Assembly: GCA_016203305.1 (NCBI GenBank) | Contig: JACQMY010000007.1 | Span: 1-49,364, forward strand | Direction of reading: 5' to 3' | From: Candidatus Woesearchaeota archaeon | GTDB taxonomy: Archaea > Nanobdellota > Nanobdellia > Woesearchaeales > ARS49 | DNA length: 49,364 nucleotides | Shown here: positions 7,911-30,226 of the stretch, piece by piece | Position numbering within the stretch: the stretch's first letter is position 1 | Layout: every line of letters begins with the position of its first letter | Program-made: the position numbers and the translations under genes | Notes under the pieces: generated by a model | What the model was told of the DNA's origin: nothing | What the model saw: only the letters and a program-made list of their open reading frames with translations | Databases searched by the model: none

Positions 7911-10900
7911 TTAGGGGGTCACGCGTTGTCTGTAGCACTTATACAGTACTGAGCAATAGAGCGTTTCAGTTCTCCCTGTGATAACTGCAGTTGGTGCCTC
8001 AGTGTATCCTTGCGCGAATAAAGGATCTCCAAAGCAGCGATAGCGATATCTTACCTGGGACGCTCCCTCTGGCTGGTCGAGTTCTCCCTCGCACGCATGT
8101 GGAGGGTTCTGAACAGTTACTGTTCCTCTGTGCAGATCATTAACGTCCTTGAAAAGTACAGCATACTCAAAACGACCCTCCCTATAGAAAATCTCCCATT
8201 TTTTCTTACCTGGATCTATCTCTATAAGTCCCACGTCACTTGAGATCTCGCCAATATTGCTTTGATATCTTAGTTTTCCATCAATAACTCTTGTCTTGGT
8301 CCCGCGGTTTATCCATCGCACAGGTTGGCCTCTTGTTAACGTAACAGAATCTGGTTGGATTCCTGTATCATCAATCCGAATATCTTGCCCTCGTATTGTT
8401 TCCAGTTCAAGAGCCAATTCAACGTTCAAAGCATCTCTAATATTAGTCCTGGTCTGAATTAACCAAAACTCCTGGCTTTCAAAGAAGGTCTTAATATCCA
8501 AGTAGTCTGCAGAGTTTCTAAAACGCGCCACATCACTTCTGATCAAGCCAACGCGAGTTCTTAAGTCCCTGACAAACTCTGCTATTCTTGGAACATCTAC
8601 CTCATCCTGTCCTGAAATGACTGGAGTTCTCAAAGTAGTCTCCAGCTTTTCAATTTCTCCATTCAAGAACGTAGCCGCATCAGTTAGCTCACGAATAACT
8701 TGCTCCTGCTTCGTTCCGCCGCCATAAGTTGTAAGTTCTGCTCTCGAAACCCGGCTTCTTTCGTAGAAGTCTCTGGCCAATGGCGTTAGATAAGTGTAAA
8801 TTGCATCCAACCGCTCCTTCAGCTGGTTCAACTTTGAAAGCCTGCTAATTGGAGTCAAAACAGGCGCCGTCGACTTCTTGTAGCAGCCTCCTAATTCACG
8901 TGGGCATGACTTTTCCGTGTTTTGTATCCAGCCATCGGATGGAGAAGGTGCCTGTTGTTTGCATTCAAATGTGAAGCCGTTGCTTGTTCCTCTACAGTAC
9001 GTTGCGCTTGGTATTACACAACATTTTAGCGTTCCTTGGCACTTCAAATTCGCCGCGCCAGGACTCAACGGCGATTGACAATTATCAGTTTGAATACAAG
9101 TGCGATACTCGCCATCAGGCTCTGAAATGCACTGTGCCTCATCCACTTGTCGTCCCTGCTGCTTTCTTGTGGCAGGAGCAATACCCTCAGGGTATGTCGC
9201 TCTGATTCGTTTTTCCATCTCGGCAAAACCAGGTGCGGGCCCTGTGGACGTTTCTATGGCTGCAGGATCGCTGAAACTGCTTTTAACACTACCATCAGTT
9301 CCGTAGAACACTACTGTCTTCACCTGCGAGCCTTCCAATACGAATTCGGTTGCTCCATTCGATTGCAAGGTCATCACGCTTGAACCAGATGCATACCGCG
9401 CAAAGGGCACGTTCTGCGTGGTGTGCCTAAACTCCCTGCGCGGCTGACCTGCAACTTCAAGAACTATTGTATTCCTGTTCTCATCATACCTCCAAGCAGT
9501 TTCCCAACTTGTAACCTGCGGATCAGCAAGCGTTGCAGGCGCCTTCGGGAAAATAAAGAAAATCTTCTCAGCAACACCAATACGGGCGCCCATCTGGTCA
9601 AGGACTGTTCTTGTTGTCTGTGGCTGGATTGCGTTGTCAGCGGCAGTGATGACATCTTGCAAATTCTGGACTGTTGGTTCTTCTGCCAAGTCTTGAGCGC
9701 GATCACGAAGCGTTCCAAGAGTGTTCACAACAGGCGTTAGCGAGGTACTTCTGTAACTATTCACTGCACCAATAGCAGCTCTGTTGCTATCCTGCTCGAG
9801 CGGGTTCAACCTACCAAATGCGGTCGTCAAATCAAGCACTGCAGGACCAAGCTCCTGGTCAGCACGCGCATATCTTGCAGTAATATCGTGAAGTAATCTA
9901 CTGAGTTGTAAACGAGCCTCGCGCATTGTTAATGTTGGCGGGCTTGCACTGATGCTGCCTCTCAACTGAGCCAGTGTTGCATCAGCAGCTTCTTGCACGC
10001 TCAAGAAAGGACTTAAAACATTGGAAACGCGCCTCAACTGGTCTGCCAGGCCAGCAGTCTGTGCAGCTTGAGCAAGGTCTTGGATTTCAGTTGCAGTAGC
10101 GCAAACGGCAAAGAAAGGAGTTTCAATCTTGACATCCTCTTCAGTAGCAGGATTAATGCTAACCTGATCAGAAGGATTGCCGAAATTATCAGCGTCAAAC
10201 GATATGAACTGGATCTTGAACGGTTGAGGAATTTTCTTAGTTTGATCATTATCACAAGGGCTGGCTTGCGTTTGAGCGCCTGTCACGACCAAAATTTGCA
10301 ATCGCTCATCAGCCTGCAAGCCAAGAGGCGCACGGGCGAGACTCACTTCTATGCTGGCTTGACTTATATCTCGACTCTGCGTACGCGGATCAACAACGCC
10401 ACCAGCACTAGCAGTATATGAGATTCTCTGCGTCAACGGACCAGTAGCACTTCCAGGCAAAACAGAACCCTTGCCAGTAAATCCGCCAGACCGGTCAACA
10501 GTCAAACCACCACTCGCGCCAAACAACTGATAAACCTCTCTGCCACCCTCATTCTTAACCTCAATCATGAACGTGTACGGCGTATTAACCGGCCGACCGT
10601 TCAGCGTGATAACCGGAGTTCCTGCAATTAACTCCATAGCGGGGCGCGCAGAATCAGGATTTCGAGAACTCCAAGCATGCACCTGGAAGCTACTGCCTCT
10701 GCCACCAGCAGGACCAAACCAGTTAGCATTAACAATAGGAGCAATACCAAAATCAGTCCTAGTTGAAATAGTAAAGTCACCATCACGCGTCAAAGGTGTG
10801 AAAATCTCGTTCTTCGCAACCTCGGTGCCAAGAGGGTTGAAAATCTTGTACTGCACGAACTTGTTCTGACGGAAATCAACAGGCTGGTCAAACACTTGAC

Positions 10901-14000: not shown

Positions 14001-15751
14001 CTTCCATCCTGGCCACCCTGATATTTGTACTTAAACGAAAAGCCCAAAGTTTGCACGCCCTGCACCAACAAACGCGGATTCAAAATCTCAGGCAACGGCT
14101 TGCTAAGCTCAACATTAATCTTAGAACCAACCCCGCACTGCTGCAAGTCAACATCAACCTCCTCAGTCTTCGCGGTAAAGCCAACCGCATCAGAAGCCTC
14201 CAAACGAACCTTATTGGGGAATTTAATGCCGCTCTCACCACTAATCCTCGGCTTCGTGCTCAAATTCGCCTTACGCTCCAACTTCAGAGGCATGCTAAAC
14301 GAACCATCAGCAGCAGTCAAAACAGTCTTCTGGGGCTTGCCATTAACAAACAAAGTCACACTGCCCGGCTCAGACAACCTGCCCTTCACCAAAGTCTCCT
14401 GACGCTGCATGACATCAAAATAAACAGGACTCAACTGCCTCAAATTATGCTCCTTAAAACTTGGAGCGCCAGTATCAAACAACACGCGCTCCTCGACGCT
14501 AGTAACAAAACCCGCCTTGTCAACAACAGTAAACGTGATCAAGTTCTCACCAACGCGCAATTGCACAGGCACGCTAGACTTGCCAGCAGCCAACACCAAC
14601 TCCTGCTTAGGGCGCTCACAAGAAAAACGAGCCTCCTGAACAACATCCTGACGAGCAGTTCCAGTCGGAATAGTGGCGGTAGCAACATCAGACTTGTCAC
14701 CCTCAACACACTGCTCGGAAACACCACTAACTTGGTACTGGTACTGCTTGCCAGCAGAAACAGCACTATCGGTAAATTCGTTCGTGTTAACAACCGCTAT
14801 CCTTTTATCATCACGATAAACACCATACTCCAAAGCATCCGAAACCTTCGACCAAGTTAGCTTTACCTTTTCCGTCGTAATCTCAGTAGATTTCAAATCA
14901 CCAACACGCAAAGGCTGAGCACCAGAAGGCTTAACCTCAACAGACAAGTTCACAGGCTCACTAACAGTAACGTTCGCAGTAAAAGTACTAACAGTAGCAG
15001 TCGGACTAACAGAAACATTCAATCGAGGAGGGGCGTCATCAACATCAACAACGTACAACCTTTGCACGCTCTCATTGCCTAAAGTAGCAGACACGCTAAC
15101 ATTATTGCTAACCTTGCCCAACTGCACGCTCCTGAAGATAAAATCACTCTTCTCAATCTTGCCCTTCCTAATCTCGATACCATTCACGGAAATAGCAACA
15201 AGCGCGCCAGGACGAGTCCTGCCAGGAATGTCAATATTGTTAGAACGCACAAAACGAGGAAGGTCAGCGTCAACAAACAACCTTCCCGCGAAGAACGTCC
15301 CAACAGGCATACTCTTACACGCACCAGACGCGTCACAACTAGACACGCGATAGAAATAACGAGTTCCCTGCACGGTCTTCAAAATAACAGAATGCCCAGT
15401 CTTCAACACAGTATCATTCGAATTATTACTCAACCTAATATCAAAACCAAAATCAACACTGCTTGTAGCAGGAACATTAGTCGACCAAGAAATTATTGTA
15501 GTCTCATTCTCAAACGTCAACAAAACATCACGAACTTCCAACACGGCAGCAACAACATCAGGACTCGCGTTCGCCTGCGCGTCAACCACAGGCATCAGAA
15601 CGATAAGCCAGAGCATCAATAGGCTTAAAGTTGGTAGTTTGTAGGGTGAAGGATGAAGGATGAAGGGCGAAGGGTGAAGGACGAAGGGTGAAGAACAGCA
15701 ATATTCCTCCTTCCGCCTTCTCCCTTCCGCCTTAAACCTTCGTGCTCTCAT
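11024..15751 (-). CDS. Giant exported FN3/Ig-like and Cys-rich surface protein
   Basis: The frame is 1575 residues. After a hydrophobic segment (about 40-58, ending V-V-D-A-Q-A) come an FN3-like domain (60-160) and Ig-like repeats. A second FN3 domain (about 285-365, W-S-K-V...Y-G-V-Y-R-D-D) and a glucodextranase-like Ig domain (about 450-500) follow. The long C-terminal half is Cys-rich and carries C-I-C-I-P. A similar C-L-C-L-P and flanking Cys pattern occurs in the 1125-aa protein at 34705. The ATG at 15751 lies one base after the upstream stop, but the first ~40 codons are made of 7-nt repeats. A start at the Met at 15616 is possible but gives a very short signal peptide. Confidence 0.75.
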   Translation of the reverse strand: MRARRFKAEGRRRKEEYCCSSPFVLHPSPFILHPSPYKLPTLSLLMLWLIVLMPVVDAQANASPDVVAAVLEVRDVLLTFENETTIISWSTNVPATSSVDFGFDIRLSNNSNDTVLKTGHSVILKTVQGTRYFYRVSSCDASGACKSMPVGTFFAGRLFVDADLPRFVRSNNIDIPGRTRPGALVAISVNGIEIRKGKIEKSDFIFRSVQLGKVSNNVSVSATLGNESVQRLYVVDVDDAPPRLNVSVSPTATVSTFTANVTVSEPVNLSVEVKPSGAQPLRVGDLKSTEITTEKVKLTWSKVSDALEYGVYRDDKRIAVVNTNEFTDSAVSAGKQYQYQVSGVSEQCVEGDKSDVATATIPTGTARQDVVQEARFSCERPKQELVLAAGKSSVPVQLRVGENLITFTVVDKAGFVTSVEERVLFDTGAPSFKEHNLRQLSPVYFDVMQRQETLVKGRLSEPGSVTLFVNGKPQKTVLTAADGSFSMPLKLERKANLSTKPRISGESGIKFPNKVRLEASDAVGFTAKTEEVDVDLQQCGVGSKINVELSKPLPEILNPRLLVQGVQTLGFSFKYKYQGGQDGRVDKNQIKLTRVTLSPEVQKEFDNGLVSVDSRPIGVRSTARGKKGEGQGYIQIRFQPIEDPWSQLKESKPKVKDGVEEEMPNNATSLMKQQRIGDHRKGDCLVPGFGCMKLFFELEIPFQETRAKGPADPLVRRTPEEIKTETEFQKTCVQIEVPIDIVIPPKYIPKGLLQATSELLTAIVTGIDKVLKPIETIGKYLTYTCLAGQAIYFIPIFLEKYNCEFSATVQGIGAAAGGGSGKFDPNVAAAGACDAQYDPNKDDTKEANSNCHSCRKSKVARKVIEYTYRQVCDRVMCPAAPSLQYYLKTSGQQKLTPIASIQNDGEWKKRFPNAYGGQKGDQFFVGNDCAAWVEKNKRKVQAGARTPPRLFFTYNEIKGIYSEWLNHKSDKWEGEPTGGAPNCNGLHPASPDCCGFAYMDEWASACGVGGVTVPAIDTFDEIKESTCLSAEKANQPGIPGAAAGQVEECNSKLNAVGGFCEPDGSEPPTTIQVRPLGGAGAAGPVAGSELERLSVGREKYLYIVLLPQKAQTAGATTGEYTIRLGYIAESIELERPQPGKLAITQNRHRIGSTQMEVVEIDGSEDLQTKYFSQENIDKYNSNPESLTTLYTEFGTRLCQSAVTGGTAVTPCPVAGKEMYDQVMAVIGSPDKEYIIKPNEGLVNSLRCICIPTLLAFLKRWRNILAAVRNCMNTILLTGDGQSGICQAVVSQHACDLLYDAIACFTQKFSTGRGRTLQAGAGVGNVMGALTSAGSEMSRSVESRYGETSLYKQIFVDRKLVHSVCLFAFTGTWNFDVGAAFDAAVDTVPTKSNGLLYPCTRRFVSFNPASKPAGLVTWQYQFGWGFAAGSDIEGIELVLKCSGGFKCRESDGFIRGKCDCDAPRETVISPDGLSGRLKNGAVENGEVFELMEGGPEGNIRYDKAFLRWRWNDGKKTIEDKTDECTINLDGGGGSIPGECKFDPLALAFRCSLAGDTGGIQFVETKVNAPRQILVKR
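15641..15741. repeat. Heptanucleotide repeat array, site 2, two opposed arrays
   Basis: Eight exact 7-nt units run from 15641 to 15696: GTAGGGT, GAAGGAT twice, GAAGGGC, GAAGGGT, GAAGGAC, GAAGGGT and GAAGAAC. A second array in the opposite orientation follows at about 15704-15741 (reverse complement units GAAGGCG, GAAGGGA). The pair overlaps the start of the giant protein frame. Three units equal 21 nt, so it reads as a seven-residue peptide repeat (S-P-F-x-L-H-P). Confidence 0.85.
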
Positions 15752-15752
15752 A

Positions 15753-17825
15753 TTACGTAAATGTTGGCTTCAACACCTTCCAATACGGCTTGTCTTCATA
15801 AGTTCCACGCTCCTGCAAGAACAGGAACATTCCAGCCTGCTGGTGCGGTTGCTCAGGCAAAGGCCTGTATTCAACAACGTGCAAAATCACGTTATTAGCA
15901 GTCGCAAGATCGTCAAACGAAACTGAAATGTTCTCAGCATGATAGCCCCCAACAACAGTATCGCCCTTGAACAACATTACGTCAATATCGTAAGCAGCAT
16001 CACCATACACAAAACTAACCTCGTCAGACAAGTACTCGGGAATGCCAGAAACCTTTTCAGAAGTAAATTGCTGGCCACTCGCAGGATAAATCAAATACTG
16101 CTCAAACCCACTCTTCCGCTCAGTCAAATAAACAGTAGCATGCATGGTCTTGGTAAACTTCGAATAAGTCTGCCCCTCAAGCCATCTCTGTTGTCGTGCA
16201 ACCAAAGGATTGTCCCTCGCAACCTCCTCATAATACGGATGAATCATAATCGAATACTGCATCTTCTTCAACTTTGTAAGCTCCAAATCAACACGATCAC
16301 CAGTCGCCTGCAACTCAGCCGGCAAGTAGCCATCCTTCTGACCAATAATCACAGGAGAACTGCAACCCTCAGGCAAGTAAGAAACAAAACGAATAGCACC
16401 AGAACCATCACTCAAAGTCCTGCCCAAAACACACTCCTGATTAACACAACGATACGTGATGTTCACATCCTCCAACTCCTCAGCAATCGGACTGCCCTCA
16501 ATGAACCCCCTTGCACGAACATCAACAGCTCTTGAGCCAAAGTTCGTACAAAAATCAACAGCAGTAGGCGGGACAACAAACTTCCGCAAGCCAAAAAACA
16601 CCCTGCTGGGAGCATTATCCTGCACAATAACCGGGAAAGCCATGCTAAAAACAAAACCGTCACCATTGAACGCAGTATCATCACGCACAGTAAACTTAAC
16701 AGGATAAATCAGATCATAAGCAAAATGCCACTGGTTCAAACAAACAAAACGCAGGTACTTCTTCGGACCCTTCATATTAGCGGTACTCAACATGCCGCCC
16801 CTGCTCGGCTGCGCATTCATCAATAAATTCCAATCAGGATAATAAATAAAAGCAGGCCTCAAATCAGACTCCTCGGCACCAACATCAAGAGTCATACGAT
16901 TAACCTCGAAAACATCATCAGGAACATTCTTCGGAAACTTCGGCTCCTTGCCAGCTTCCAAAGAACTCCTGATCTTCGCAGCCTCATCCTTCAACTTCTC
17001 ATAAGTACGCTCGCTCGCCAAAGGAGGAGGAGCAAAAGCATTCGCAACACGAATGTTCGGCAAATTATAATACAACATCTGCTGCAACTCTCTTTTCACC
17101 TCAGGCAAAAACCACTTTTTAGTACCACAGAAAAACTCCATCCCGCTAATAGGAGTACGAGGATTCATGCTCATCAAGTCAATAGTCAAATTCTCAAACC
17201 ACGCTTCCTTATTCTCATACTTCATAACCTTAGAAGCAAGATCATGCGATTTTTTCAGTCGCACGTCATGCCTTGCGAAAAACTCCTTAATGTCAGTTGT
17301 CCGCTCCTTTGTAGAAACTTCCAAAGGCCAGTTCACCTGAACCAAAACTTCCTCATCAGTAATGCCAATAACAGGAACAATATCTCCTTTCGGCGCAACT
17401 TGGAACGCGCCAGTGAAAGCAGCGAAATTGTCAACACAATCAGTCAAACCCTGCTTCACCCACAAAGCCAAGTCCCTCTGCATGCCATCCAAACTCGGCG
17501 TGCGGTCCTCACCATCCAAATACCAGAAAGGAGTTTTAACAACACCAAACGGATCAGACTGAACGTACGCAGTTGGTGTTCTTTCAATAATTCCAGGCAA
17601 GTACAAATAACCACCCTGCTCGCCCATCAAAATAATACCCTCCTTGCTAACTTGGTTAACACACTCAGAAACAAAATCATACACCTGACGAACATCCTCA
17701 GGAACAACAACAGCCTTCTCCAACTCAGCACGCTCACGAGTCTGAACGAAATATACAACTATCCCAACACTCAACAACAGCACTATCCCTAAGATTATGA
17801 ATATGGTAATTTGTGCTTTACCCAT
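15753..17825 (-). CDS. Pilin-like anchored exported protein, first of three paralogues
   Basis: The 690-residue protein begins K-A-Q-I-T-I-F-I-I-L-G-I-V, a short basic stretch followed directly by a hydrophobic helix as in class III (pilin-type) signal peptides, but with Phe where pilins have Glu at +5. It shares C-x(n)-E-G and Q-G-G-Y-L near residues 54-75 and a later C-V-D-N-F with the proteins at 18915 and 38079. The rest is a large beta-rich extracellular region. It leads a three-gene operon. TTTAAATA lies about 42 nt upstream, so this mRNA may have a short leader. Peptidase processing is inferred. Confidence 0.78.
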   Translation of the reverse strand: MGKAQITIFIILGIVLLLSVGIVVYFVQTRERAELEKAVVVPEDVRQVYDFVSECVNQVSKEGIILMGEQGGYLYLPGIIERTPTAYVQSDPFGVVKTPFWYLDGEDRTPSLDGMQRDLALWVKQGLTDCVDNFAAFTGAFQVAPKGDIVPVIGITDEEVLVQVNWPLEVSTKERTTDIKEFFARHDVRLKKSHDLASKVMKYENKEAWFENLTIDLMSMNPRTPISGMEFFCGTKKWFLPEVKRELQQMLYYNLPNIRVANAFAPPPLASERTYEKLKDEAAKIRSSLEAGKEPKFPKNVPDDVFEVNRMTLDVGAEESDLRPAFIYYPDWNLLMNAQPSRGGMLSTANMKGPKKYLRFVCLNQWHFAYDLIYPVKFTVRDDTAFNGDGFVFSMAFPVIVQDNAPSRVFFGLRKFVVPPTAVDFCTNFGSRAVDVRARGFIEGSPIAEELEDVNITYRCVNQECVLGRTLSDGSGAIRFVSYLPEGCSSPVIIGQKDGYLPAELQATGDRVDLELTKLKKMQYSIMIHPYYEEVARDNPLVARQQRWLEGQTYSKFTKTMHATVYLTERKSGFEQYLIYPASGQQFTSEKVSGIPEYLSDEVSFVYGDAAYDIDVMLFKGDTVVGGYHAENISVSFDDLATANNVILHVVEYRPLPEQPHQQAGMFLFLQERGTYEDKPYWKVLKPTFT

Positions 17826-17885
17826 TACTAAATACCCCTTTTTAACAAGAAGGTTGGTGTGATAGTATTTAAAGGTAACTAGGGC

Positions 17886-18015
17886 GAAGGTGGAAGGATG
17901 AAGGTATTAGGGCGAAGGGTGTAGGTATTAGGGTGAAGATAGTTTGTAGTCAGTAGTTTGTAGGACGAAGGGTGTAGGTATTAGGACGAGGGTATTAGGA
18001 AGAAGGGCGAAGAAT
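17886..18015. repeat. Heptanucleotide repeat array, site 3 (longest)
   Basis: About eighteen 7-nt units fill most of the gap between two divergent regions. They begin GAAGGTG, GAAGGAT, GAAGGTA, TTAGGGC, GAAGGGT, GTAGGTA, TTAGGGT, GAAGATA, continue through GTTTGTA units, and end GTAGGAC, GAAGGGT, GTAGGTA, TTAGGAC, GAGGGTA, TTAGGAA, GAAGGGC, GAAGAAT. One phase change occurs near 17956-17960. A related stretch GCTGTTGGCTATTAGT follows near 18048 and recurs near 22892. Confidence 0.85.
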
Positions 18016-22888: not shown

Positions 22889-22909
22889 TTGGCTGTTGGC
22901 TATTAGTTT

Positions 22910-22964
22910 GTAGAGTGTAGGTATTAGGACGAAGGTGGTAGGACGCAGGTTGTTGGAAGCAGAC
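22910..22964. repeat. Heptanucleotide repeat array, site 4
   Basis: About eight 7-nt units follow the stop codon of the surface gene: GTAGAGT, GTAGGTA, TTAGGAC, GAAGGTG, GTAGGAC, GCAGGTT, GTTGGAA and GCAGACG. The preceding bases GGCTGTTGGCTATTAGTTTG repeat those near 18048 and 23830. The array ends just before the promoter of the PIN gene at 23015. Confidence 0.8.
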
Positions 22965-23014
22965 GTTGTCTGTGAGAAACATTTTTATACTACAAAATAC
23001 TACAAACGTAGTAC

Positions 23015-23860: not shown

Positions 23861-23955
23861 TATAGAGACAAACTTTAATAATCGGATAAACAGAGTAAAG
23901 TTTGTCGAATATAGTAATCGAAGACAACATCCGAAAATTAAAGTCGATTACTATA
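23861..23955. mobile_element. Double-hairpin element, copy A
   Basis: TATAG (23861-23865) leads into an 11-bp hairpin, GACAAACTTTA (23867-23877) with TAAAGTTTGTC (23896-23906). CGAATATAGTAA follows and begins a 12-bp hairpin, TATAGTAATCGA (23910-23921) with TCGATTACTATA (23944-23955). TCGGAT in loop 1 (23882-23887) is complementary to ATCCGA in loop 2 (23929-23934). Copy B at 28676 has the same plan and length but different stems. The rest of the gap 23802-24119 shows only a heptad-like GTTTGTAATGTTGTAG; no gene is seen. Confidence 0.75.
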
Positions 23956-25143: not shown

Positions 25144-25760
25144 TCATGGCAAACACAGATTGCGAAGGTTCTGCCGAAACTCGCGGGCGCCATCAAGGCC
25201 TGTTTGGTAGGTTTCAAGTGATGGGTCAAAGACATGTGAAGTAATGCCGTCTTTTTTTGTCAAAAAGGGTCTGAGCGCTTGTAAGTTGGTAATCCTGATA
25301 AGTTCTCCGAGTTGAAGGGCGGCTCTTCGTTCTACTATTTGTCGCTCGACAAATTTCAACTCGTGTTCGTCAAGTGTGGGCAGGTTCTGAGAGAAGGAAG
25401 CTGAAAGAGAGTCTCTATCTGCTGGTAGGCAAGCGCTTCGTAGGTGAAAACTCTTGCTCCGCTTTGCAGGCTCCAGACCAAACCCAGTGCAGCGCTGGCA
25501 TCACAGGAAAGAGCAGTCTCAAGTTCTGTTGTTTCAATGAAACCATTGAGTCGTTTTCCCATTTCCCTGACTCCTTTGCTTTCGAGCTGGATGCCATTGA
25601 AGTAAAATGTTCCAACGCCCTCAGGGAGACAGTATCGCTGACGTTCAGCTCCACAAAGATCAATAACAACACCATTGCTGGTGGGAGCCGCGTCAATGCG
25701 ATACTGTTCTATCACGCAGAGATCGTTCAATCGTTGCAATACTTCATCGATTGTGCTCAT
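25144..25760 (-). pseudogene. Frameshifted tandem copy of the 203-aa gene
   Basis: The two overlapping reading frames (start M-S-T-I-D-E-V-L-Q-R at 25760, end at 25144) together match the intact neighbour at 25815-26426 along its whole length, for example S-G-A-R/K-V-F and G-E-L-I-R-I. The frame is lost near 25378-25388. There the first frame ends in T-N-T-S, while the other reads N-L-P-T-L-D like the neighbour's L-L-P-T-L-D; one missing base explains it. This is either real decay after duplication or a sequence error. Confidence 0.75.
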
Positions 25761-25812
25761 AGTCCGACCATTTTTTGGAGTTGCTGATATCCTGTGAGCT
25801 TGCCGAGCCATG
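25761..25812 (-). pseudogene. Duplicated 3' tail of the 126-aa gene
   Basis: These 52 bp encode W-L-G-K-L-T-G-Y-Q-Q-L-Q-K-M-V-G-L-stop, a copy of the last codons of the gene at 26423-26803, joined to the second copy of the 203-aa gene by the same ATGA overlap. It marks the left edge of a 666-bp tandem duplication. Confidence 0.8.
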
Positions 25813-25814
25813 TC

Positions 25815-26426
25815 TTAATGTAAGTTTTTGAGTGCTTCTTTAAAGGCGTGAGCGCTTTGGAGATTTGTCTGATAGATTTCAAGTTCAGGGTCGAAAACAT
25901 ACGATGAAGCGACTTGGGTCCGTTTCAAAAAAGGTTTAAGCGCCCGCATGTTGTTGATGCGGATGAGTTCTCCGCTACAAAGGGGTTCTCGTTTTTGGAT
26001 GATTTTTTCCTCAACTGCTTGGAGAGCTTCAGTGTCCAATGTGGGCAACAGTCGAATAGGAGGAAGCCCAAATACGTCTTGCACTCGCTGGTATGCAAAT
26101 GCCGCGTAGGCGAACACTTTGGCTCCGCTCTGTAAGCCCCTCACCGCAGTGAGCGCATCGCTAGCGGAACATGCAAGAGGCGCGTCACCTTCCTTCTCTT
26201 TGAGAAACCGTTCAAGTCCTTGTGAGAAGGCACAAACTCCCTGGGGTACAAGTGGCGCGTCATTGAAGTAAACGCCCCCTAATCCTCTTGGAATACGATA
26301 ATTTCTACGCTCATGGCCAGTGAGTTCTACCGTAATGCCAGTGCTGTTCGAAACAACTTTAATACGGTAATACTCTGTCACGCAGAGATCATTCCCTCGT
26401 TGCAATACTTCATCGATTGTGCTCAT
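25815..26426 (-). CDS. Unknown 203-aa protein, intact copy of a tandem duplicate
   Basis: A soluble protein: a beta-rich N-terminal third (R-R-N-Y-R-I-P-R-G-L-G-G-V-Y-F-N), a helical middle (L-Q-S-G-A-K-V-F-A-Y-A-A-F-A-Y-Q) and a C-terminal part with G-E-L-I-R-I-N-N-M-R-A-L-K-P-F. There is no membrane segment and no recognised domain. It starts in an ATGA overlap with the 126-aa gene upstream, so the two are translated together. A frameshifted copy follows downstream. Confidence 0.7.
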   Translation of the reverse strand: MSTIDEVLQRGNDLCVTEYYRIKVVSNSTGITVELTGHERRNYRIPRGLGGVYFNDAPLVPQGVCAFSQGLERFLKEKEGDAPLACSASDALTAVRGLQSGAKVFAYAAFAYQRVQDVFGLPPIRLLPTLDTEALQAVEEKIIQKREPLCSGELIRINNMRALKPFLKRTQVASSYVFDPELEIYQTNLQSAHAFKEALKNLH

Positions 26427-26803
26427 AGTCCGACCATTTTCTGGAGTTGTTGATATCCTGCAAGCTTGCCGAGCCAGGCTGCGTATCTTGGATTGCCTGC
26501 GGCGATTGCGTTCAATGCTGTAAAGAAAGGCGAAAGCACTTGTCTTATGAATGCAGCGCGTGCTGCCACAAGGTTTCTTCCGTGAGAAGCAGAAGTAAAG
26601 AGGATTAAGTTTTTCTCGAGATTACTGAGACATTCTCGCTCATCAACAGTGGGCTTTGGTTCTTCTGCGATAAGCCGTTTGAGAACCGTACGCACAGTGC
26701 TGAGGAGAGTCACGGTCTGCGATGGAAAGGTTTCCAGCGATCGAAAAGTGGCTTGAACTGCTGTCAATGATGTTACCAACTCGTTCAGTAATTCCGCATT
26801 CAT
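26423..26803 (-). CDS. Unknown 126-aa helical protein
   Basis: An all-helical soluble protein starting M-N-A-E-L-L-N-E-L at 26803. The longer frame upstream is excluded because TTTTTAAAT ends about 21 nt before this ATG and because the longer frame runs antisense through the AbrB gene. It is cotranscribed with the 203-aa gene (ATGA overlap) and divergent from the AbrB-PIN module. No family was recognised. Confidence 0.7.
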   Translation of the reverse strand: MNAELLNELVTSLTAVQATFRSLETFPSQTVTLLSTVRTVLKRLIAEEPKPTVDERECLSNLEKNLILFTSASHGRNLVAARAAFIRQVLSPFFTALNAIAAGNPRYAAWLGKLAGYQQLQKMVGL

Positions 26804-27611: not shown

Positions 27612-27709
27612 TCTAAAAACCCAAGAAAGTGTAAATGGAATTCCATACTAAACACTGGACTTGGATGGACGCAAGGTTATTAAGCGCGGTTTGTACTGTT
27701 TTGGCAGAA

Positions 27710-28411
27710 ATGGCTGTTTCAGACAACGCGTTAGTCGTTTTCCAAGGCAAGAACATCAGAAGAACATGGTTCAATGATGAGTGGTGGTTCTCAGTAGTCG
27801 ATATTGTGGAAGCGTTGACGGAGACGGGAAGAGCGAGAAAATACTGGTCTGACCTGAAAATCAAACTGCAAGATGAAGGGTTTGAAGTGTCCGAAAAAGT
27901 CGGACAGTTGAAATTAGCGGCAGAAGACGGCAAATTAAGGGCCACCGACTGTGCGAACACAAAAAATATGTTCAGGATCATCCAAGCCATTCCTTCTCCC
28001 AAGGCAGAGCCATTCAAGCAATGGCTTGCAGAAGTCGGCTACCAGCGGGTTCAAGAGATAGAAAATCCGGAACTCGCGCAAAAGCGTATGAGGGAACTAT
28101 ACAAAGCCAAGGGTTATTCTGATGACTGGATTGAAAAAAGAATGCGAGGGATTGCTATCCGCGACGAGCTTACTGACAAATGGAGAAAACGGGGGGTTTT
28201 GGAAGACAGAGAATACGCAATACTTACTGCGGAGATCACGAAGAACGAGGATGCGCAGGGATACGCAGCGGTTGAAGGCGCTGCGAAAAGAGGCGGAAGA
28301 GTGGCGGGCAGTGCAAGGAAAGAAACAGAGAAGGAATTAGGTCGCCCAGTTACATCGAGAGAGAATTATCTCGCTGAACCGGAGAAAAAGAAAAAAATCT
28401 CCAATGAATAA
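27710..28411 (+). CDS. Bro-N domain (phage antirepressor-like) protein with internal deletion
   Basis: The 233-residue protein starts M-A-V-S-D-N-A-L-V-V-F-Q-G, a standard Bro-N opening, followed by R-R-T-W-F-N-D-E-W-W-F-S-V-V-D-I-V-E-A-L. The middle has E-P-F-K-Q-W-L-A-E-V-G-Y and the repeat-like K-A-K-G-Y-S-D-D-W-I-E-K-R-M-R-G-I. Family members I know continue from A-I-L-T-A-E-I for about 50 residues before reaching D-A-Q-G. Here the two motifs are separated by only a few residues, so a segment appears lost in frame. DNA-binding by Bro-N is known; activity of this form is uncertain. Confidence 0.75.
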   Translation: MAVSDNALVVFQGKNIRRTWFNDEWWFSVVDIVEALTETGRARKYWSDLKIKLQDEGFEVSEKVGQLKLAAEDGKLRATDCANTKNMFRIIQAIPSPKAEPFKQWLAEVGYQRVQEIENPELAQKRMRELYKAKGYSDDWIEKRMRGIAIRDELTDKWRKRGVLEDREYAILTAEITKNEDAQGYAAVEGAAKRGGRVAGSARKETEKELGRPVTSRENYLAEPEKKKKISNE

Positions 28412-28476: not shown

Positions 28477-28950
28477 TCAGTTGGTTACATTTTGTAACCA
28501 CCTCGCTTCCTTCGTTTTGTTAATTCGCTTTGAAAGCTCTGAAGCAACGAGTTTTTGCCTCGCATTCAATCGTTCGACAAGTGCTATCCTTTGCGCTATT
28601 AACTCCTGCTTTCTTGTCTGCACTGCAAAATAACTCTGTGCAAAAGCTACTTCCTCTTGGGTCTGCGCAATCAAATATAGCGCCGGACATAAATAACTAT
28701 ACAAAATAGTTATGTCCGGCGAATATAGTAAGTGACGCCTTTGTATAACTATTTTGGTCACTTACTATAACGCGCATATCTTGTAAGCATGATGTCTTCA
28801 ACTTGGCACCAGAGCCAATGTCAACCATTTTCCTGACGTCGGGGAAATGGTCATTCATATCATGGCTTTCGTACAGGCAACCCTTCTCAATCCCATGAAT
28901 AAAGTTCTCCCACTTGTCATACTTGCAAACATTCTATTCCATGTACAAAT
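28477..28950 (-). pseudogene. dinD: dinD-like gene remnant split by the double-hairpin element
   Basis: Upstream part (28950 to 28773): K-Y-D-K-W-E-N-F, then D-H-F-P-D-V-R-K-M-V-D-I-G-S-G-A, then in the next frame E-D-I-M-L-T-R-Y-A. Downstream part (28677 to 28477): Y-L-I-A-Q, E-E-V-A-F-A-Q-S-Y-F-A-V-Q-T-R-K-Q-E-L. These are consecutive blocks of DinD (DNA-damage-inducible protein D), normally joined as R-Y-A-C-Y-L-I-A-Q. The double-hairpin element sits exactly between A and Y. A TAG, a frame change and a truncated C-terminus confirm decay. Confidence 0.8.
28676..28772. mobile_element. Double-hairpin element, copy B, inserted in dinD
   Basis: TATAG (28676-28680) leads into a 12-bp hairpin, CGCCGGACATAA (28681-28692) with TTATGTCCGGCG (28710-28721). 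CGAATATAGTAA (28720-28731) begins a 13-bp hairpin, TATAGTAAGTGAC (28724-28736) with GTCACTTACTATA (28757-28769). CAAAATAG in loop 1 (28702-28709) is complementary to CTATTTTG in loop 2 (28749-28756), extending into the stem. Length and plan equal copy A. It interrupts a conserved DinD motif between two adjacent codons, so it was acquired as a unit. Confidence 0.8.
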
Positions 28951-29873: not shown

Positions 29874-30226
29874 ATGACTATGCCTGATGCATTAGTAGTA
29901 TTTCAAGAAACGAGAATTCGCAGGGTTTGGCACAACGACCAATGGCATTTCTCAGTCACCGATATTGTTGAAGCGCTTACTGACAGCCCTGCCCCCCGAC
30001 AGTATTGGGGAGTGCTGAAGAGCAGGGAGCCCCAACTGTTAACAATTTGTTTACAGTTGAAACTGCCAGCAGAAGATGGTAAACAGAGGTTTACAGATTG
30101 CGTAAACACGAAAAATGCATTCAGGCTTATCTAGAACAAGAAACAAAAAAGAAAGTTCTAACCCCTGAAAACTACCTAGACGCCCCTGAAAAGGAGAAAC
30201 GAAAAAGACTCGAAACGAAGGATTGA
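29874..30226 (+). pseudogene. Bro-N gene relic with central deletion and frameshift
   Basis: The N-terminal part reads A-L-V-V-F-Q-E-T-R-I-R-R-V-W-H-N-D-Q-W, close to the intact-looking copy at 27710, and runs to N-T-K-N-A-F-R-L-I before TAG at 30132. In the next frame L-T-P-E-N-Y-L-D-A-P-E-K-E-K follows, matching the C-terminal end of the family (R-E-N-Y-L-A-E-P-E-K-K-K). About 120 central residues are missing. TTATAAG lies about 22 nt before the ATG, so the promoter may still work. Confidence 0.75.

Follow-up and report, generated by a model that had tools for sequence, protein, structure and literature searches.

A hairpin-ended element, probably an IS630-type MITE, inserted in a dinD relic of a woesearchaeal archaeon

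Within the window, the whole stretch of 49,364 nucleotides analyzed here, DinD homology on the minus strand flanks a 94-base two-hairpin segment on both sides, and the match to the DinD model NF008573 spans positions 28477-28761. This arrangement raises the question of what the segment is, how it entered the gene and why it folds as it does (two-hairpin DNA fold, z = -8.0; none of 200 shuffled sequences was equally stable). A preliminary description of this DNA had held that a hairpin element interrupts dinD and that the family reads R-Y-A-C-Y-L-I-A-Q at this point. Both statements are borne out by six relatives (L013, L014, L108, L111, L113, and L114; a further one, L115, is truncated and does not enter this count), in which LTRYACYLIAQ or TRYACYLVAQ runs uninterrupted, the intact protein reading ...TRYACYLIAQNGDPRK... 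or ...YLVAQ... without a break.

The same relatives supply the empty site to which the preliminary description had pointed as the telling comparison. All six carry a single TA at this position (CAATAAGATAACAGGCATATC in L013), and the window reads CAATCAAA-TA-[TAG...CTA]-TA-ACGCGCATATC, which is 92 bp longer. Delimited by these empty sites and matched with 108.9 bits by the covariance model R1 (see below), the element proper, denoted copy B, comprises 90 bp (TAG...CTA) at 28678-28767 on the plus strand, between two copies of the duplicated target TA at 28676-28677 and 28768-28769. The boundaries originally proposed, 28676-28772, hold to within three bases, the right border having been placed three bases too far out. 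Fused on one TA, the window flanks read DIMLTRYARYLIAQTQEEVAF, so that no codon is missing; the one that had seemed unaccounted for is present as CGT (Arg), where the relatives have TGT (Cys). Nor does the cut fall between two adjacent codons, as had been thought: the target TA forms the first two bases of a Tyr codon and the break therefore lies within that codon. The homology blocks thus join at the insertion, and nowhere did we see the hairpins within an intact gene; a failure of the blocks to join, or such a gene, had been named beforehand as speaking against an insertion.

The dinD fragment that precedes the insertion (...DHFPDVRKMVDIGSGA.../DIMLTRYAR; 28770-28950, minus strand) is frameshifted, judging from its translation and from comparison with L013, L014, L108, and L113. 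The fragment that follows it (YLIAQTQEEVAFAQSYFAVQTRKQEL...; 28477-28675, minus strand) matches positions 92-149 of NF008573 and, compared with intact dinD, has lost the C-terminal ~150 residues. The frameshift lies upstream, before DIMLTRYA, four codons are missing after YLIAQ, and in the downstream piece only a 49-residue stretch still matches the DinD model, to which an intact relative scores 355 bits. Given these further lesions, the insertion need not have inactivated the gene: dinD is a decayed fragment regardless of the insertion, and its decay may precede or follow that event. On its two sides the relic has a PF02498 (Bro-N) gene and another open frame resembling it (27635-28411 and 29874-30134). 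Elsewhere the window contains degenerate 7/14-base purine-rich repeats (AGGGTGAAGGATGAAGG; 15629-18008 and 22898-22965) and a 170-nt direct repeat, 78% identical (25641-25810 and 26307-26476).

Copy B belongs to a mobile family. By DNA search, copies were recovered from the genome that contains the window as well as from families throughout the archaeal order, and the covariance model R1, built from 14 copies, detected the double-hairpin element in 142 of the 353 genomes of the order. At a stricter threshold, a sample of the phylum added only two genomes, both from another family of the same class, and when 84,980 species genomes were scanned with a pattern, all 11 matching records were titled Woesearchaeota, Nanoarchaeota or 'archaeon', which assigns the window to this lineage. 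Copies measure 90-96 bp and end in TATAG...CTATA. The earlier suggestion that the element moves as a unit with such ends proved correct: the same ends recur at unrelated places and, in one genome (G130), identical copies stand between unrelated flanks (L118-L120; L116/L117), which indicates recent movement. A second copy in the window, copy A (23861-23955, plus strand; 61.3 bits with R1), represents a diverged subfamily. An open frame of at least 100 codons was found at 11 of 74 re-joined sites, compared with 74% of random positions; hence the copies are mainly intergenic, dinD being an exceptional case. A second gene, the otherwise open mazG in G205 (L135), is interrupted as well: re-joining on one TA yields EEAGE-V-GREL, and PF03819 spans the junction. 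Insertion at TA with duplication of the TA is accordingly seen in two genes, dinD and mazG. Apart from mazG, the open-frame bookkeeping at eight other sites was set aside, the frames being mostly neighboring genes or non-coding.

Copies also occur in more complex settings. An ATGCC-type copy near a gene end in G077 (L043:1501-1594) is bordered left and right by CTGAA, which may be a duplication of 5 bp in place of TA. Nested arrays, in which one double-hairpin unit lies between the two hairpins of another, are present in G002 (L004, L015) and G130 (L049:2030-2210 and 8476-8703); the four-hairpin array of G002 stands at two sites with differing flanks, as if it had moved as a unit. Element copies from several genomes contain, in the linker or a loop, a small double-hairpin insert of another kind (~45-60 nt, with short loops and often AGAAA..TTTCT stems) (L052:1717-1864, L053:1552-1698, L053:11159-11292, L054:567-720, L020:1503-1648, and L049:8520-8659). 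Two inverted four-hairpin arrays enclose a 6.3-kb block that encodes long proteins, in part paralogous (L049:2210-8476; G130:C60); the block was considered as a composite element and rejected, no recognizable transposase being found inside.

The hairpins themselves are defined by DNA folding and by covariation, that of hairpin 1 among 79 distinct copies. The 5' side (28676-28705) of hairpin 1 (28681-28721, plus strand) forms the left end with the subterminal motif GACATAAATAACTATACAAAA, which recurs at IS630 ends, and the 3' side of hairpin 2 (28724-28769, minus strand) forms the right end, the reverse complement of which is TATAGTAAGTGACCAAAATAGTTATACAAA. The two hairpins have opposite orientations, and the loop motif GACATAAATAATTATACAAAA consequently lies 11-30 bases inside each end. 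Among the 79 copies, pairing is kept in 96.6% of stem cells and 382 double changes are counted against 93 after shuffling, in an alignment that was fitted to the covariance model and is hence biased towards pairing. Stem pairing in these copies drops steeply when the partners are shifted by one base, and the initial 14-copy MAFFT alignment is concordant, with 47 double changes against 12.5. Within the same copy, the stem arms of the two hairpins are only 36% alike, with the TATA and GAC segments 91% and the loop motif 70% alike. The dissimilarity of the arms indicates that two local hairpins are maintained; a single long foldback hairpin is ruled out, the two-hairpin fold being the minimum. 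An Rfam search returned only sub-threshold chance matches and no known structured RNA family.

Complementary arms might also be maintained in an IS630 MITE without any selection on its hairpins, if replication copying across each palindrome (templated correction) restored the pairing. Double changes do far outnumber one-sided changes in the stems, in keeping with such a process, but one-sided wobble states exist and are common to several copies (L122/L123), as expected of point mutation followed by compensation, and the divergence between the arms of hairpin 1 and hairpin 2 is not predicted by correction alone. We consider this explanation rather doubtful and favor an IS630-type element whose hairpins are under selection.

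At ~90 bp, copy B is too small for a transposase gene of its own, and the attribution to the IS630 family comes from larger elements with similar ends. The candidates were PF13358 (DDE_3) elements from the same archaeal order, scored against a random background that reached a maximum of 16.4 bits in 1.5 Mb of random sequence. The clearest case, in L090, is 1062 bp long and terminates in TATACCTAGTGACATAAGTATTTATACAAA and TATAGTAAGTGACATAAGTTTTTAGACA (29.5 and 29.9 bits); TATAGTAAGTGAC, found in hairpin 2 of copy B, also ends this element, and its two frames match HTH_32/33, DDE_3 (PF13358), and both halves of the NCBIfam IS630 model NF033545. Like ends are found in DDE_3/IS630 elements at L088/L056, L094, and L091 and, more weakly, at L084 and L083; such ends are absent from many PF13358 loci. 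Moreover, the resemblance follows subfamilies. In L080, from a genome (G005) of the window's family, the element ends in TTAATAATCGGATA and TTTGATTTTCGGAAG, to which both ends of copy A in the window, TTTAATAATCGGATA and TTTAATTTTCGGATG, correspond in the same left-right order; copy A is its best match among all copies, at 31 of 38 positions against a median of 18. Similarly, the four best matches of the element in L095, from family f10, are all f10 copies, the best matches of the L085 end are ATGCC-type copies, and nearly all best matches pair the left IS end with hairpin 1 and the right IS end with hairpin 2. The inner complementary arm is missing from the IS ends, where 4-7 of 9 positions agree as opposed to mostly 8-9 in the small element. 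Thus, both share the motif on the transposase side, to which the small element adds the hairpin.

No DDE_3 (PF13358) gene turned up in the genome that carries the window (G000) or in several copy-rich genomes, such as G166. A cognate transposase in the same genome is usual rather than obligatory, and its absence is common for MITE relics and in fragmented assemblies. An autonomous counterpart, with these hairpins flanking a gene, was sought by means of a half-element pattern in 20 genomes and in the stretches between copies, and none was found; by eye, the genes between copies are tRNA-synthetase-like, deformylase-like or encode long membrane proteins, with no transposases among them.

A different enzyme would be involved if the element were REP/REPIN-like and were moved as single-stranded DNA by a hairpin-recognizing Y1 transposase (RAYT or IS200/IS605), a reading suggested by the two inverted hairpins per unit, the mostly intergenic copies, compensatory changes like those in REPIN spacers (PMC3116915), and the greater frequency of Y1 genes where the element is present (odds ratio 2.4, p = 0.0001). 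DDE_3 genes are modestly associated with the element across genomes (odds ratio 2.4, p = 0.017), and, the two odds ratios being equal, association at this level is uninformative. The loci themselves speak against Y1: the motif is absent from the ends of 12 sampled Y1 loci, the sole strong match being an ordinary copy of the element that lies over 1 kb away from the gene, whereas the same motif stands at both ends of IS630 elements. Furthermore, the element has no fixed GTAG-like foot, and its TA target is duplicated, while Y1 transposition is not known to duplicate its target. Movement by a Y1 transposase is therefore improbable. Even less credence attaches to a mitochondrial-type double-hairpin element spreading by an unknown, possibly RNA-based route, to which the IS630-like ends would be secondary. 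The gross anatomy is that of the Allomyces double-hairpin elements (cited in PMC2800124), the stem sequences change and the arrays are nested; however, flanking duplications are reported to be missing from the Allomyces elements, whereas here the TA is duplicated in two genes, and the IS630 ends are matched subfamily by subfamily.

We therefore propose that copy B is, with high probability, an IS630/Tc1-mariner-type MITE with hairpin ends, moved in trans by an IS630-family transposase, its hairpins being kept by selection. On this proposal, the transposase, as the predicted agent of movement, would recognize both ends through TATAG and, beyond a variable stretch, GAC and an AT-rich subterminal motif, excise the ~90-bp unit and insert it at a TA, which is duplicated in the process; the target here was the TA of a dinD Tyr codon. 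Each MITE end, unlike those of the autonomous IS, carries an inner inverted copy of its own outer arm, such that a single strand folds into two separate hairpins, and selection would keep the arms paired while their sequence drifts. ISY100-type IS630 transposases need only ~24-bp ends, cleavage at Tc1/mariner ends involves no hairpin intermediate, and insertion occurs at a TA that is duplicated (PMC2170065); the short end requirement and the TA insertion fit trans-mobilization of a 90-bp unit. The known IS630/Tc1-mariner mechanism has no call for hairpins. Presumably their role is in transposition, as DNA ends that are folded or extruded, an action in RNA being less likely. Most plausibly, folded ends help the small element either by presenting cruciform or single-stranded ends during replication or by avoiding one long unstable palindrome. 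We further raise, tentatively, a bolder possibility that we do not expect to hold, namely that the hairpins are part of end recognition, with a DDE (IS630-type) transposase or a co-factor acting on cruciform or single-stranded MITE ends. In that event, the stem sequence would be free to drift as long as pairing was kept, and MITEs would have an advantage over the parent IS.

Among known systems, a TATAG-type terminus characterizes the Correia/NEMIS elements of Neisseria, and the element resembles the double-hairpin elements of Allomyces mtDNA, with their two adjacent hairpins of variable sequence. MITEs related to IS630 (RUP) and others that end in TA (Correia) are already established (PMC2229807). 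RUP of Streptococcus pneumoniae (107 bp, IS630-Spn1) is similarly ~100 bp long and geneless, uses a TA target, and has ends matching an IS630-family element by which movement in trans has been proposed (PMC2229807), but it is described there as a one stem-loop type element with TIRs, whereas here, in an archaeal order, each end has its own hairpin with drifting, covarying arms. Correia/NEMIS elements share TA termini, a size of ~107/155 bp, target duplication, and a stable stem-loop (PMC2229807); in contrast, their TIRs pair end to end and are fixed in sequence. In the CIR elements of Caulobacter/Brucella a linker likewise joins two separate arms (PMC2229807), but these elements lack a known transposase, are only partly MITE-like and expose a GANTC motif. 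REPINs and BIMEs are also inverted pairs of palindromic units with compensatory changes (PMC3116915), and differ in their Y1 transposase, their conserved REP sequence, and a hairpin formed between the two ends. The Allomyces elements, unlike the one described here, come with neither a reported flanking duplication nor a known transposase. In the open-access literature we found no description of MITEs from Woesearchaeota or other DPANN archaea, nor of an IS630-type MITE with two separate covarying hairpin ends that is widespread in a DPANN order. The unusual feature of the element is that each end retains a hairpin of its own in spite of continual sequence change. The family is widespread in the order, its covariation is as strong as that of structured RNA, and it pairs with IS630 elements subfamily by subfamily; together, these properties make it testable why a DNA transposon cleaved as duplex DNA should keep hairpin ends that its parent lacks.
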